The notes beneath the pieces are model-generated. The model saw nothing but the letters and a program-made list of their open reading frames with translations, was not told where the DNA came from and made no database searches. The position numbers and the translations under genes were made by a program. 64,000 nt of DNA from Geomonas azotofigens (GTDB lineage Bacteria; Desulfobacterota; Desulfuromonadia; Geobacterales; Geobacteraceae), in assembly GCF_018919395.1 (NCBI RefSeq), contig NZ_JAHLME010000006.1:62001-126000 (forward strand). The letters run 5' to 3'. Shown here piece by piece: positions 19,794-25,488 of the stretch. Position 1 is the stretch's first letter. Every line of letters begins with the position of its first letter.

Positions 19794-21566
19794 ATGCCAT
19801 CAGCAAGTAAGCGCCACTATCGCCGCAACCGCACCAGGCACCTGCGCCTTCTCCTCACCGCAGTCTTCCTCCTCTGCGGCGTCATCCACGTCGACGCGGC
19901 CTTGGCGGCCGACCCCGGCCCGTCACTGGTCATCGTCGGCGGCGACCGCAGCTATCCTCCCTACGAGTTCCTGGACAAGGATGACAAGCCAAGCGGCTAC
20001 AACGTGGAACTGACCCGCGCCGTGGCGCGGGTGATGGGGCTCAAGGTCGACATCCGGCTGGGGGCATGGTCGCAGCGGCGCCAAGACCTGGTCCGGGGGG
20101 ACATCGATCTCCTGGAGGGGATGTCCTACTCGGACGAGCGCGCCAAAACCCTCGACTTCTCGCCGCCGCACACCATCGTGCACCACTCCATCTTCGCCCG
20201 CAAAGGAGGGAACAGGCGCCCGACGCTGGCTGACCTGCGCGGCAAGGAGGTCCTGGTGCTGAACGACGGCATCATGCAGGAGTTCCTGGCCGCGAACCGC
20301 GTCGGCGCCACGGTGATACCGGTCCCCACCCACGCCGACGTGCTTCGCTCGCTGGCCTCGGGCAAGCACGACTACGCCGTCATGGCGAAGCTCCCCGGCC
20401 TGTACCTGATCCGGGAGCTGGGGCTGTCCAACCTGGAGGCGGTGGGGGACCCGGTATCGGCGCAGCAGTACTGCTTCGCGGTGAACAAGGGGAACGCGGC
20501 GCTCCTGGCCCGCTTCAACGAGGGGCTCGCCATACTGAAGAACACCGGCGAGTACCAGAAGATCTACAACAAGTGGCTGGGCGTCCTGGAGCCGCCGGGG
20601 CTCTCCTGGAGCGAGGTGTTCAAGTACGGCGCCGTCGTGGTGCTGCCGCTCATCCTGCTGGCGGGGGGCTCGGTGCTCTGGTCACGGGCTCTTTCGCGCG
20701 AGGTGGACACCCGCACGGCGGAGCTGACCCGCGAGGTGGAGGAGCGCCGCCTTGCCGAGGAGGAGCTCAGGAACCGGCAGCAGCAGCTGGTCCAGGCAGA
20801 CAAGATGGCGGCGCTGGGGATCCTGGTTTCGGGCGTGGCGCACGAGATCAACAACCCCAACGGCCTGATCCTTTTGAACCTGCCGGTGGTGATGGAGGCG
20901 TTTCGGGACGCAGAGCCGATCCTCGAGGAGTATTACGAGAAGAACGGCGACTTCGAGTTCGGGGGGCTCTCCTATTCGCGGATGCGCGAGGCACTCCCCA
21001 AGCTGATCCAGCAGATGCAGGAGGGGTCGCGGCGGGTGAAGCTGATCGTCGAAGACCTGAAGGATTTTGCAAGACAGCAGGAGCCGGGGCAGGCGGCGGA
21101 GCTCGACCTGAACGAAACGGTGCAGGCGGCGCTGCGCCTTCTGGCCAACCTGGTGGAGAAGAGCACCGAACACTTCAGCGTGAGCCTCGGCAGCGGGATT
21201 CCCAAGCTCAACGGCAGCGCCCAGCGCATCGAGCAGGTGGTGGTGAACCTCCTGGTGAACGCCTGCCAGGCGCTCCCCGCACCGGATCGGGGCATCGAGC
21301 TGGTCACCTGGTTTGACGCCGAAAAGAGGCAGGTGATCCTGGAGGTGCGGGACCAGGGGACCGGCATCGCGCCGGAGCACCTGCCGCGTTTGACCGATCC
21401 CTTCTTCACCACCAAGCGTGAAAGCGGCGGCACCGGGCTCGGGCTGTCGGTATCGAGCGGCATCGTCAAGGAGCACGGCGGCGAGCTCTCCTTCAGCTCC
21501 GCCCCGGGCGCAGGCACCACGGCACGCCTCACCTTCACCGTGCCGGACAAGGAGTCCGTATCATGA
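19794..21566 (+). CDS. Sensor histidine kinase with periplasmic solute-binding (SBP_bac_3) domain
   Basis: A 590-residue kinase: signal anchor (about 18-38), a family 3 periplasmic binding domain (about 44-265: GGDRSYPPYEFLDKDDKPSGYNVEL, GDIDLLEGMSYSDERAKTLDFSPP), one membrane helix (278-297), a coiled coil, HisKA with His350 in SGVAHEINNP, and HATPase (VRDQGTGIAPEHL, GGTGLGLSV). Family 3 domains bind amino or carboxylic acids. The stop overlaps the start of the sigma54 activator gene by 4 bp, so kinase and regulator are cotranslated partners. A dicarboxylate or similar ligand is suggested by the Dcu transporter downstream (inference). The Shine-Dalgarno at 19794 is weak. Confidence 0.92.
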   Translation: MPSASKRHYRRNRTRHLRLLLTAVFLLCGVIHVDAALAADPGPSLVIVGGDRSYPPYEFLDKDDKPSGYNVELTRAVARVMGLKVDIRLGAWSQRRQDLVRGDIDLLEGMSYSDERAKTLDFSPPHTIVHHSIFARKGGNRRPTLADLRGKEVLVLNDGIMQEFLAANRVGATVIPVPTHADVLRSLASGKHDYAVMAKLPGLYLIRELGLSNLEAVGDPVSAQQYCFAVNKGNAALLARFNEGLAILKNTGEYQKIYNKWLGVLEPPGLSWSEVFKYGAVVVLPLILLAGGSVLWSRALSREVDTRTAELTREVEERRLAEEELRNRQQQLVQADKMAALGILVSGVAHEINNPNGLILLNLPVVMEAFRDAEPILEEYYEKNGDFEFGGLSYSRMREALPKLIQQMQEGSRRVKLIVEDLKDFARQQEPGQAAELDLNETVQAALRLLANLVEKSTEHFSVSLGSGIPKLNGSAQRIEQVVVNLLVNACQALPAPDRGIELVTWFDAEKRQVILEVRDQGTGIAPEHLPRLTDPFFTTKRESGGTGLGLSVSSGIVKEHGGELSFSSAPGAGTTARLTFTVPDKESVS

Positions 21567-22975
21567 CCACCACCCTCTATCCATCCTTCAGCATCCTGCT
21601 GGTGGACGACGAACCGGACTGGCTCTACTCCATGAGTATCACCCTGGAGCGCGCGGGGCTCACCAACATCCTGACCTGCGCGGACAGCCGCGAGGCCCTG
21701 AAGATGATGACACAGCACACGGTCGGCGTGGTGCTCCTCGATCTCACCATGCCGCACCTTTCCGGGGAGGAACTCCTGGAGCGGATCGCGGAAGAGCACC
21801 CCGAGGTGACGGTGATCATCGTGAGCGGCCTGAACCAGCTGGAGACCGCGGTGAACTGCATGAGAAGCGGCGCCTTCGACTACTACGTGAAGACCTCGGA
21901 GGAGGGGCGCATCGTCAAGGGGGTGAAGCGGGCGGTCCGGGAGAAGGAGTTGCAGCTCGAGAACCGGGAGCTGAGAAACCGCTTCCTCTATGACCGGCTG
22001 GAGCACCCGGAGGCATTTGGCGACATCGTGACCGGCGACAAGGGGATGCGCTCCATCTTCCAGTACGTCGAGGCGGTGGCGCTCTCCTCGCAGCCCATCC
22101 TGGTGACCGGGGAGAGCGGCGTCGGCAAGGAGCTGATCGTTGCCGCGCTGCACCGGCTGTCCGGGAGAAAGGGGGAGTTGGTGGCGGTGAACGTGGCGGG
22201 CCTGGACGACGCCATGGTGTCGGACACCCTCTTCGGACACGTGAAGGGGGCCTACACCGGCGCGGGCGAGGCGCGCAAGGGGATGATCGAGCAGGCCGCC
22301 GACGGGACGCTGTTCCTGGACGAGATCGGCGACCTGAGCCTCGGTTCGCAGGTGAAACTGTTGCGCCTTCTGCAGGAGGGGGAGTACTACCCGATCGGCA
22401 GCGACCGGCCCCGGCGCATCCGGGCGCGGGTGGTGGTGGCGACACACCAGGACCTGGCCGCGCGGCAGGCGGCCGGTGAGTTCCGCAAGGACCTCTACTA
22501 CCGGCTGCGGGCGCACCACCTGCACATCCCCCCCTTGAGGAAGCGGAAGGAGGACATACCGCTTTTGCTCGATCACTTCCTGGAACTTGCCGCCGCGGAG
22601 TTCGGCAAGAAGAAGCCGACCCTCCCCAAGGAACTCGCCGTGCTCCTCTCCACCTACGACTTCCCCGGCAACGTGCGGGAACTGAAGGCGATGGTCTACG
22701 ACGCGGTGAGCCTGCACCAGGGGGGTGTGCTTTCCATGGAGGCGTTCGTGCGGGCCATCGGCGAGCGCCCGGTGCACGCCGCCGCGGAGCAGGCGGTCGA
22801 GGCATCGGACAACCCCTTCTATGGCATGGAGCGACTCCCCGGCTTCACCGAGGCCATCGACCTTTTGGTGGCCGAGGCGGTGCGGCGGGCCGAGGGGAAC
22901 CAATCCATCGCGGCAAGGCTTTTGGGGGTATCGCAACCGACGCTGAGCAAGAGGTTGAAGCAGCAGCGTTCATAA
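21563..22975 (+). CDS. NtrC-family sigma54-dependent response regulator
   Basis: A 470-residue regulator with receiver (1-125, phospho-Asp60 in VVLLDLTMPH), AAA+ domain (about 145-385: Walker A GESGVGKE, sigma54-contacting loop GAYTGA, Walker B LFLDEIGDL) and a C-terminal Fis-type helix-turn-helix (NQSIAARLLGVSQPTLSKRLKQ). GAYTGA replaces the common GAFTGA, a substitution seen in functional members. It is translationally coupled to the kinase gene. Likely targets are the paired dyads at 23596-23613 and 23683-23700 and the sigma54 promoter of the Dcu gene (inference from position and symmetry). Confidence 0.95.
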   Translation: MTTTLYPSFSILLVDDEPDWLYSMSITLERAGLTNILTCADSREALKMMTQHTVGVVLLDLTMPHLSGEELLERIAEEHPEVTVIIVSGLNQLETAVNCMRSGAFDYYVKTSEEGRIVKGVKRAVREKELQLENRELRNRFLYDRLEHPEAFGDIVTGDKGMRSIFQYVEAVALSSQPILVTGESGVGKELIVAALHRLSGRKGELVAVNVAGLDDAMVSDTLFGHVKGAYTGAGEARKGMIEQAADGTLFLDEIGDLSLGSQVKLLRLLQEGEYYPIGSDRPRRIRARVVVATHQDLAARQAAGEFRKDLYYRLRAHHLHIPPLRKRKEDIPLLLDHFLELAAAEFGKKKPTLPKELAVLLSTYDFPGNVRELKAMVYDAVSLHQGGVLSMEAFVRAIGERPVHAAAEQAVEASDNPFYGMERLPGFTEAIDLLVAEAVRRAEGNQSIAARLLGVSQPTLSKRLKQQRS

Positions 22976-23095
22976 CCGCGGCCGGACCAGGCGAGGGTCC
23001 CCTCCCGACCTCCCCCCTCCGGGGGGACGAGATGGACGAGGAACGGCTTGCTGTGGCGCCACCGTAGTGCTAGGATGACTGCCCCGGAGGGATAA

Positions 23096-23518
23096 ATGGA
23101 GCACCGCCACAAAATCAGCATGCCTTTGCCACTACGGCACCGGACAGCGTTCCGACTGGCCGCGCTCCTCCTCCTGCTCTCGCTGCCGCTCCCCGGCTGC
23201 GCCACGGCGACCTCCCCCCTCCCGACCTCCACCCGCCCGACCTCCACCCGCCACTACCCCGCCATAACCATCTATACCGGCAGCGGCTGAAGCTACTGCG
23301 CCGAGGTGGAAAGTTATTTCACCGAGAAAGGGATCCCCTACACCACGCGCGACATCCGCAAGGACCACGTCGCGCACCAGGAATGGCGCGAACGCTACCA
23401 TGGCGACATGGTCCCCCTCATCGTCTTCGACCACGGCAAGCGGATCGTCGACGGCTGCGATGTCCGGGCCATCGAACGGGTGATGCGGGAGCTTGAGGAT
23501 GGGGCCCGGGCAAGGTAA
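23096..23518 (+). CDS. Selenocysteine-containing glutaredoxin-like lipoprotein (in-frame UGA at 23288-23290)
   Basis: Read through the in-frame TGA at 23288-23290, this is a 140-residue protein. Residues 17-35 are a signal peptide ending LPLPGC, a lipobox-like site (Cys36). After a Pro/Thr linker comes a glutaredoxin fold: ITIYTGSG-U-SYCAEVESYFTEKGIPYTTRDI, then HGDMVPLIVFDHGKRIVDGCD. The TGA falls exactly on the first active-site position of a CxxC motif (U65-S-Y-C68), and the frame continues with full homology to TAA, which argues against a true stop. TVP is replaced by MVP. GGAGG lies just before the ATG. A candidate SECIS hairpin follows the UGA. The likely role is thiol-disulfide exchange at the membrane. 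The alternative, a nonsense mutation, is less likely because of the exact Cys position. Confidence 0.85.
23305..23323 (+). promoter_or_regulatory. Candidate bacterial SECIS hairpin
   Basis: GGTGGAA (23305-23311) can pair with TTTCACC (23317-23323), one G-U pair included, around the loop AGTTA. The loop G lies about 23 nt after the UGA, within the spacing known for bacterial SECIS elements, which sit in the coding region just after the codon. Confidence 0.5.
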
Positions 23519-23595
23519 GGCACGGGAAGGCTAATACCCGAGGGATCCCACCCGTCAACCGAACGCCCGCCTCACCGGAACCATGCGGAAAAGGG

Positions 23596-23613
23596 GTATT
23601 CCCCCGGGCATAC
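23596..23613. promoter_or_regulatory. Upstream activator dyad, distal site
   Basis: An 18-bp dyad GTATTCC-N4-GGCATAC. Together with the copy at 23683-23700 it lies about 200 bp before the predicted transcription start at about 23804, typical for an NtrC-class enhancer. The overlapping 13-bp palindrome GGCATACTATGCC (23607-23619) shares its right half. Confidence 0.6.
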
Positions 23614-23682
23614 TATGCCGGTTGTCATACATCACCCTAACCGACCGTAGTTCCGTATCATTCCTCGCTGACACAGTCCCCC

Positions 23683-23700
23683 GTATTCCCTGCGGCATAC
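23683..23700. promoter_or_regulatory. Upstream activator dyad, proximal site
   Basis: The same GTATTCC-N4-GGCATAC dyad as at 23596-23613 (15 of 18 bases identical overall, all 14 arm bases identical), centred about 112 bp before the predicted start of transcription. Confidence 0.6.
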
Positions 23701-23776
23701 CCCTCATGAGAACCAGCGCGCTTCGGTCGACACGACAACCCTCCGATTCTACGACATTTGCATCCGGGCATCCCTC

Positions 23777-23794
23777 TTGGCATCGCCGATGCTA
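23777..23794 (+). promoter_or_regulatory. Sigma54 (-24/-12) promoter of the Dcu transporter gene
   Basis: TTGGCATCGCCGATGCTA fits the sigma54 consensus, with GG at -24 (23779-23780) and GC at -12 (23791-23792) separated by exactly 10 bp. It gives a start near 23804 and a leader of about 44 nt. No other gene is seen in the 23519-23847 gap. Confidence 0.7.
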
Positions 23795-23847
23795 TGTACC
23801 GGTCGTGGGCGATACTGCGCCCGACCATCTCAGAGGGGAGAATCATC

Positions 23848-25488
23848 ATGTTCTGGCTAGAGTTCGTAGTGGTACTGGCAGCTATCTTCGTCGGAGCCCG
23901 GTTGGGCGGCATCGGCCTCGGGGTCATGGGCGGCCTGGGCCTCGCGGTCCTCACCTTCCTGTTCCACCTGCAACCGACCGCGCCCCCCATCGACGTCATG
24001 CTGATGATCGCCGCCGTGGTCACGGCCGCCGGCGTGCTGCAGGCGGCGGGGGGGCTGGACTACCTGGTATCGCTGGCGGAACGGATCCTCAGGAACAACC
24101 CGGACCGGATCACGTTCCTGGGGCCCATGGTCACCTACTTTTTCACCCTCTTCGCCGGGACCGGGCACGTCGCCTATTCGGTGCTCCCGGTCATCGCCGA
24201 GGTGGCGCGCGAGACCGGCGTCCGCCCCGAACGCCCCATGTCCATTTCGGTAATCGCCTCGCAGCAGGCCATCACGGCGAGCCCGATCGCCGCGGCAACC
24301 GTGGCTCTTTTGGGCCTGCTCGGTGGCTCGGCCGCCAAGTTCGGCTTCAACGTGGAACTGATCGACATCCTGAAGGTCTGTATCCCCTCCACCCTGATCG
24401 GCGTCATCATCGCCGCCTTCGTCTCCAACAAGCTCGGCAAGAACCTGGACCAGGACCCGGAATACCAGAAACGCCTTAAGGAAGGGTTGGTCCCTCCGCC
24501 GCGCACCTCCCATGCGGACAGCGCCAAGGTCAACGAGGCGATCAGGAACACGCCGGCCGGCGCCAAGGTGGCGGTGGCACTGTTCCTGGTGGGAACCATC
24601 CTGGTGGTCCTCTTCGGCTCCTTCCCGCAAATGCGCCCCGAGTGGAGCGTGGGGAGCGATACCAGGATCAGCCACATCGTGGTGAAGAGCGAGACCGAGG
24701 CGAAGCAGGTGCTCGCCCAGCTTAAATCAGGCGGCAACTTCTCCGACGTCGCCAAACAATGCTCCATCGACGCCACGGCGCCGACCGGCGGCGACCTCGG
24801 CTGGCAGGCCAAGGGAAAGATGATCCCCGAGTTCGAGAAGGCGTGCGCCAAGCTGAAAAAACCGGGTGACCTCACCGAGGTGATCAAGACCCCGTTTGGC
24901 TACCACGTCGTCAAGCTCGATGACAAGCGCCCCGCCCAGAACAAGGAGAAGATGGGGATGCCGCACGTGATCGAGATCGTGATGCTGACCATCGCGGCGC
25001 TCATGCTGCTTCTGTGCAAGGTGAAGGTATCCCGCGTGGCCGAGGGGAGCGTGTTCATCGCGGGCGTGCAGGCGGTCATCGCCATCTTCGGCATCGCCTG
25101 GATGGGGGACACCTTCTTCCAGGGAAACATGGACTTTCTGAGCGGCTCCATCAAGGGGATGGTCACCACCGCGCCGTGGCTGTTCGCCTTCGCGCTCTTC
25201 GTACTCTCCATCCTGCTCTACAGCCAGGCCGCCACGGTGAGGGCGCTCATGCCGCTGGGGATCAGCCTGGGCATCCCCGCCCCCTTCCTGATCGCCATGT
25301 TCCCGGCGGTTAACGGCTACTTCTTCATACCCAACTACCCGACCGTGGTCGCCGCCATCAACTTCGACCGCACCGGCACCACCGGCATCGGGCGCTACGT
25401 GTTGAACCACAGCTTCATGATCCCGGGGCTCGTCGCCACCTTCTCGTCCATCGGTATCGGTTTTTTGCTGGTGAAGCTGATGTTCTAG
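23848..25488 (+). CDS. dcuB: Anaerobic C4-dicarboxylate transporter (Dcu family) with inserted parvulin PPIase domain
   Basis: A 546-residue transporter. Residues 1-260 and 370-546 are the two halves of a Dcu carrier (LEFVVVLAAIFVGARLGGIGLGVMGG, FAGTGHVAYSVLPVIAEVA, ASQQAITASPIAAA; PHVIEIVMLTIAALMLL, LFAFALFVLSILLYSQAAT, PNYPTVVAAINFDRTGTTGIG). The family exchanges fumarate, malate, aspartate and succinate. Between the halves, at about 272-361, sits a complete parvulin domain (SHIVVKSETEAKQVLAQL, FSDVAKQCSIDATAPTGGDLGW, MIPEFEKACAKLKKPGDL, TPFGYHVVKLDDKR), which accounts for the roughly 100 residues beyond the usual length of about 445. The start at 23848 is chosen for GGGGAG 7 bp upstream; an in-frame ATG at 23758 would precede the sigma54 promoter. 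The exact Dcu subtype is not certain. Confidence 0.9.
   Translation: MFWLEFVVVLAAIFVGARLGGIGLGVMGGLGLAVLTFLFHLQPTAPPIDVMLMIAAVVTAAGVLQAAGGLDYLVSLAERILRNNPDRITFLGPMVTYFFTLFAGTGHVAYSVLPVIAEVARETGVRPERPMSISVIASQQAITASPIAAATVALLGLLGGSAAKFGFNVELIDILKVCIPSTLIGVIIAAFVSNKLGKNLDQDPEYQKRLKEGLVPPPRTSHADSAKVNEAIRNTPAGAKVAVALFLVGTILVVLFGSFPQMRPEWSVGSDTRISHIVVKSETEAKQVLAQLKSGGNFSDVAKQCSIDATAPTGGDLGWQAKGKMIPEFEKACAKLKKPGDLTEVIKTPFGYHVVKLDDKRPAQNKEKMGMPHVIEIVMLTIAALMLLLCKVKVSRVAEGSVFIAGVQAVIAIFGIAWMGDTFFQGNMDFLSGSIKGMVTTAPWLFAFALFVLSILLYSQAATVRALMPLGISLGIPAPFLIAMFPAVNGYFFIPNYPTVVAAINFDRTGTTGIGRYVLNHSFMIPGLVATFSSIGIGFLLVKLMF

Follow-up and report, generated by a model that had tools for sequence, protein, structure and literature searches.

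The question raised by this locus is whether a TGA codon in the middle of a glutaredoxin-like reading frame is a stop, and hence the mark of a decayed gene or the boundary of a shorter one, or a codon at which selenocysteine (Sec) is inserted. The frame lies in a 64,000-nucleotide stretch of Geomonas azotofigens DNA (hereafter, the window), where an initial annotation had proposed a Sec-containing, glutaredoxin-like lipoprotein. The gene spans 23096-23518 on the plus strand and consists of 140 codons followed by a TAA stop at 23516-23518, with one in-frame TGA at 23288-23290. A ribosome-binding site, GGAGG at 23086-23090 (+), sits ahead of its ATG and was read directly as ccccGGAGGgataaATGg. 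The TGA had been placed at the first active-site cysteine of the frame, and we find its coordinates and frame to be as claimed. Mechanical ORF calling returns 64 residues (23096-23290) and 70 residues from a GTG at 23306, which is the split into two short genes that had been anticipated. Read as Sec, the TGA would supply residue 65, the first position of a UxxC motif, in an active site U65-S-Y-C68 whose resolving Cys68 is encoded at 23297-23299 (+). The product is predicted to be an exported selenoprotein with an N-terminal signal peptide (23096-23200, +) and a glutaredoxin/thioredoxin-fold domain covering about residues 57-139 (23264-23512, +).

The TGA form of the gene was present in 19 of the 78 genomes searched, the window's own included, with some match in 65 of the 78. 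An order-wide profile search matched 112 of 141 genomes; its top 24 rows (at least 134.5 bits), again including the window's gene, are the TGA form, and the row that follows scores 85 bits. All 24 family members (the 19 and five more that were checked), distributed across seven genera, have the TGA at the identical place together with UxxC. A phylum-wide sample of 395 genomes yielded nine matches at an E value of 1e-14 or better; six have the TGA form, all from Geobacterales, and a PF00462 scan of the 78 genomes found TGA-bearing matches at loci of this clade only. Several other TGA-marked rows were examined and rejected: G018:C137 is not in a UxxC frame; the weak rows G078, G022 and G042, outside the 24, are Cys proteins; and so are G045 and G044, the TGA of G045 being its terminal stop. 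The second stop counted in three of the 24 (G040, G009 and G072) is, by frame, a terminal or preceding stop.

The proteins themselves have conserved columns to either side of the codon. In the alignment of 19 sequences, for which the start codons of relatives were picked by eye from ribosome-binding sites, 17 columns are invariant, including G64 directly before Sec; residue 65, residue 68, P107 and D122 are likewise among the invariant positions, and I57 is conserved ahead of the UGA. The role first assigned to Cys68, as resolving residue, is in keeping with its invariance. The 19 proteins contain no core indels, and dN/dS for the 66 codons past the UGA is 0.10-0.42 (14 pairs); selection on the codons that follow the TGA is purifying. 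Because only 9 of the 19 genomes of the genus Geomonas carry the gene, it is dispensable. Its absence from the other 10, along with the two short frames returned by ORF calling, is what could be said for a glutaredoxin gene in decay, its active-site codon lost to a nonsense mutation. Such decay does not account for the same TGA in 24 of 24 members across seven genera, for a downstream hairpin that covaries (see below), or for a dN/dS below 1 downstream of the UGA. With 24 TGA-bearing family members, decay and chance are excluded, and since the TGA is conserved and followed by codons under purifying selection, we consider decay refuted and its probability negligible.

The gene contains a candidate bSECIS apical hairpin, GGUGGAA-AGUUA-UUUCACC, within its coding frame at 23305-23323 (+). 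It has a 7-bp stem and a 5-nt loop, spans 15-33 nt past the UGA with the loop 21 nt after it, and has a 43-nt energy of -9.4 kcal/mol; it agrees with the published bacterial SECIS model, as quoted in section 5 of PMC13188914, on each of four criteria. Taken alone, the hairpin is weak in the window sequence: its energy is about 1 sd from shuffles (z about -1), stems equally long by the same rule follow 142 of the window's 1570 TGA triplets, and 127 of the 1570 (about 8%) also satisfy the SECIS criteria, their 43-nt energy being no higher than -7.5. The weight of the case for a recoding signal is carried by the family evidence, rather than by the single-sequence hairpin. Across 19 sequences 132 of 133 stem cells are paired, as against 70.7% at most when the arms are slid, and five members outside the alignment that defined the hairpin form 7/7 pairs each. 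Compensatory changes affect two pairs (four cells): three sequences have C-G in place of U-A, and one has G-C in place of A-U. Further pair types, one of five covariation measures, showed no excess (3 vs a shuffled mean of 3.4). Synonymous codons are frozen within the hairpin (AGT, for example, encodes Ser in 17 of 17), with a homogeneity of 0.98 (6 codons) vs 0.62 (31 codons, the first five past the UGA being excluded); the p value of 6.7e-5 is optimistic, since the sequences are related and both it and the shuffle counts overstate independence. The family hairpin is absent from the minimum-energy structure of all three Cys paralogues folded, and the centroid of the Cys paralogue L029 has another 6-bp hairpin nearby.

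The host must also be able to make and insert Sec, a check that had been suggested at the outset. The window's genome encodes SelA (508 bits), SelB (393.6 bits) and SelD (358 bits), as well as a tRNA-Sec scoring 74.9 bits vs a 47-bit cut-off that is likewise exceeded in 5 of 14 control genomes, so that this model alone is not fully specific. SelB was found in 24 of 24 carrier genomes. As a separate observation, the SelD gene (L048, C18:49370-50287 of the same genome) holds an in-frame TGA and is probably a selenoprotein gene itself. On these comparisons of sequences the reading of the TGA as Sec is strongly supported, and each of the refutations proposed initially (missing Sec machinery, lack of any Cys or Sec homologue, indels marking decay) failed.

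The initial annotation had pointed to Sec or Cys homologues as a further check. Both exist: beside the 24 TGA members, four database homologues (P0007, P0014, P0015 and P0035) have Cys at the Sec place, P0014 with a lipobox-like LAAC besides. In an unrooted tree of 37 rows (24 Sec and 13 Cys, with P0035 left out), a single group with support 98/93 takes in every one of the 24 Sec rows, together with the Cys rows P0007 and P0015, and P0014 lies just outside. Two changes of Sec/Cys state are needed on this tree, which fits a single origin of Sec and a single return to Cys, as read on an unrooted tree.

The same database searches revealed how the gene is currently represented. Among 5.77 billion proteins, the window protein had 3 matches, the family profile 45 and the protein of Geobacter sp. 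AOG1 4; only proteins 0.55 to 1.75 times the query length are admitted, and most fragments of about 71 residues lie outside the range of a full-length query. The 45 profile matches comprise 36 that start after the UGA, 3 with Trp at its place, 4 with Cys there and 2 WCxxC proteins (P0045 and P0046). No full-length Sec record was found among the matches of the window protein, the 19-row profile or the AOG1 protein. Trp as a genuine variant was rejected for P0005, P0006 and P0008, which resemble proteins of the L027 type; these are metagenome entries, and the likeliest source of the Trp is a gene caller that translated UGA under genetic code 4. Entries that carry a name start inside the hairpin, one example being 'glutaredoxin family protein [Geomonas agri]' (P0010). 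It could be argued from them that the true product is a post-UGA fragment of about 70 residues from GTG 23306, as annotated in relatives ('glutaredoxin family protein', 71-73 residues), and the NCBI/UniRef entries P0009, P0010, P0012 and P0016 do start at that place. We find this very improbable: the fragment would be without the active-site Sec and Cys and without the first strand, the residues ahead of the UGA (I57 and G64) are conserved, and its start codon falls inside the conserved hairpin. The full-length selenoprotein gene, conserved and intact, is held by the protein databases mostly as post-UGA fragments, and we regard this as an annotation gap.

What kind of protein does the gene encode? 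With Cys in place of Sec, the window protein matches the Pfam Glutaredoxin family PF00462 at 41.3 bits (cut-off 22.9; E value of 1.8e-10) over residues 57-112. In the glutaredoxin fold the Pro after Val is cis; the window protein has both the C/UxxC motif and a Pro after Val, the invariant P107, which we take as the cis-Pro. Its best NCBIfam match is YruB (TIGR02196), at 52.2 bits under a cut-off of 88.55. Although it is glutaredoxin-like, as are the Uxx-star (seleno)proteins of NCBIfam, it falls under every one of their cut-offs: NF041212 gives 43 bits (E value of 4e-11; cut-off 66), and NF041114, NF041211 and NF047338 give 16.8, 21.1 and 15.9 bits vs 72, 100 and 97. The SWCPHC/SWCSHC Cys paralogues of Geobacterales (L029-L036) have the domain in common with it, and a hydrophobic N terminus in 8 of 8, but they form a separate tree group (100/100) apart from the Sec clade. 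Among solved structures, cGrx1 (PDB 7c10), which we take to come from Clostridium oremlandii and to be naturally a selenoprotein, is 27% identical to the window protein and cGrx2 (4tr0) 24%; the nearest structures include GSH- and GSSG-bound cGrx2, and the N-terminal 50 residues of the window protein are without equivalent in the solved chains of cGrx1 and cGrx2 (75-93 residues). A reference title in the literature gives Clostridium oremlandii as the source of 4tr0.

Those N-terminal residues are informative as to location. A strong hydrophobic N-terminal stretch occurs in all 19 Sec members, the window's included (15-residue mean hydropathy 1.99-2.88), the signal peptide being called from hydropathy and pattern with no dedicated signal-peptide predictor. 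In the window protein the h-region LAALLLLLSLPLP is followed by a lipobox-like LPGC ending in Cys35 (23198-23200), which has Pro at -2, is non-canonical and fails a strict, PS51257-like lipobox pattern. Cys occupies the lipobox column in 14 of the 19 homologues and 8 of the 19 pass the strict pattern; in L024, L026, L027 and L028 the column lacks Cys and an AxA pattern is present, and L015 has neither. Because the hydrophobic stretch is found in 19 of 19, the lipobox in 8 and the column Cys in 14, export appears to be the conserved trait and lipidation lineage-dependent. Of the signal peptide and lipobox first described, then, the former stands and the latter holds only in part. Export of the window protein is a well-supported prediction; its lipidation, which carries some uncertainty, is likely and would vary by lineage, and membrane anchoring is plausible. 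DsbA-like, DsbG-like and thiol:disulfide interchange proteins act outside the cytoplasm. Sec forms of all three, redox proteins of a related thioredoxin fold, are on record in PMC1794560, but the catalogues assign the DsbG-like and thiol:disulfide interchange proteins to other Pfam families (Thioredoxin_2 and Thioredoxin_4).

The gene neighborhood includes, as initially described, an NtrC-type regulator upstream (21563-22972) and a Dcu-type dicarboxylate transporter downstream. The regulator adjoins a histidine kinase with an SBP_bac_3 sensor domain (19794-21563, +). The transporter (23848-25485, +) is of the DcuA/DcuB C4-dicarboxylate type, with PF03605 in two stretches and, inserted at about residues 281-361, a prolyl isomerase domain of the PpiC type; related ORFs of 564-576 residues occupy the corresponding position in L053, L058 and L059. 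The order kinase, NtrC-type regulator, Sec-glutaredoxin is kept in 4 of 15 loci (L052, L053, L058 and L059), all from Geomonas, and Dcu-GDH is also kept in three of those four, L052 ending earlier. At the remaining 11 loci the neighbors are, by eye, unlike the window's, some being common to near relatives. We found no conserved operon partner among the 15 named loci, and no linked reductant or substrate gene in the loci read. The sole sigma-54-like site of the window (TGGCAT-N6-TGCT, 23778-23793, +) is located after the selenoprotein gene and before the transporter, and at least one such site arises by chance in 32 of 100 shuffles (mean 0.38). Since the lone site lies after the gene, co-regulation of the selenoprotein gene with the transporter is unsupported. 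The interval 22900-23900 yielded neither a sigma-70-like promoter nor a terminator, and Rfam gave two weak, unrelated matches only.

Sec-glutaredoxins as such (Grx, PF00462, UxxC) have been catalogued before (PMC1794560, PMC9312934, PMC13188914). One from G. sulfurreducens was predicted and catalogued (PMC1242214, PMC1794560; catalogue example WP_010943784.1), and GSU2812 is named a glutaredoxin family protein, Sec being unmentioned in the available part of the KN400/PCA paper (PMC3495685). The window protein has PF00462, UxxC and a bacterial SECIS in common with the catalogued proteins, whose hosts include a Geobacter species; its clade differs by its predicted signal peptide and, in many members, a lipobox, the G. 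sulfurreducens protein being compared by description only. The accessible text of PMC13188914 and PMC1242214 contains none of the terms periplasm, signal peptide or lipoprotein, and that of PMC1794560 neither of the first two. Among the matches listed in the literature searched, in the portions available, we found no description of a Geobacterales Sec-glutaredoxin that is exported or bears a lipobox. What appears to be new is a Geobacterales clade of this known kind that is predicted to be exported and often to bear a lipobox, the host here lacking the two glutathione-synthesis families tested.

We hold recoding, fold and export, taken together, with high confidence, and they suggest the following scheme. 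SelB and Sec-tRNA would read the UGA at 23288-23290 as Sec, aided by the hairpin 15-33 nt downstream. The product would be exported via its signal peptide, would probably stay tethered by signal or lipid in many lineages, and would adopt a glutaredoxin-type fold whose active site is Sec65-Ser-Tyr-Cys68. In the periplasm, or on the inner membrane's outer face, it may reduce disulfides or oxidized selenol/thiol groups of exported proteins, Sec65 attacking and Cys68 resolving the selenenylsulfide. Re-reduction of the redoxin by a DsbD/CcdA-type membrane protein, and not by glutathione, is the tentative part of the scheme, and we would put it at somewhat less than an even chance; the genome encodes three DsbD_TM proteins. 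Of the functions considered, an extracytoplasmic selenol/thiol-disulfide reductase fed by such a membrane protein is the most likely, the partner being one that we infer.

Two other functions were weighed. A glutathione-dependent glutaredoxin would be in keeping with a PF00462 score above cut-off, with GSH- and GSSG-bound cGrx2 among the nearest structures and with the invariance of P107 and D122. Nevertheless, the glutathione-synthesis families PF02955 and PF04262 were not found in the window's own genome, the E. coli control being positive, and the predicted location is outside the cytoplasm; we consider this function improbable, and use of glutathione by the window protein in its host, judged on the two synthesis families searched, unlikely. 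Because the genome is without these two families, 'glutaredoxin' describes the fold of the window protein. Geobacter-type hosts live with metals, a circumstance that favors a selenoprotein whose Sec would bind metal or metalloid ions with no disulfide exchange. Sec is discussed as a possible metal ligand in UXX-star proteins in the available text of a 2026 review (PMC13188914), but the window protein is below the UXX-star cut-offs, the UxxC pair and the Cys homologues suit redox exchange, and no metal-resistance gene is adjacent in the loci read, where neighbors outside the window were judged by eye. Metal binding is, in our estimation, just as improbable as dependence on glutathione, and the reductase remains our preferred function.

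The Sec-glutaredoxins thus gain what we regard as a well-supported exported clade. A predicted extracytoplasmic Sec redoxin in a bacterium that seemingly is without glutathione raises the question of what reduces the redoxin and what the redoxin protects, and the Sec and Cys sister sequences provide natural pairs in which the reason for using Sec could be studied. One speculative answer, unlikely as matters stand though less so than either alternative above, is that a membrane-tethered, glutathione-independent selenoredoxin outside the cytoplasm, evolved in Geobacterales, keeps the thiols of exported multihaem cytochromes (CxxCH) or of other periplasmic redox proteins reduced. If this were true, it would connect selenium supply to cytochrome maturation and extracellular electron transfer.
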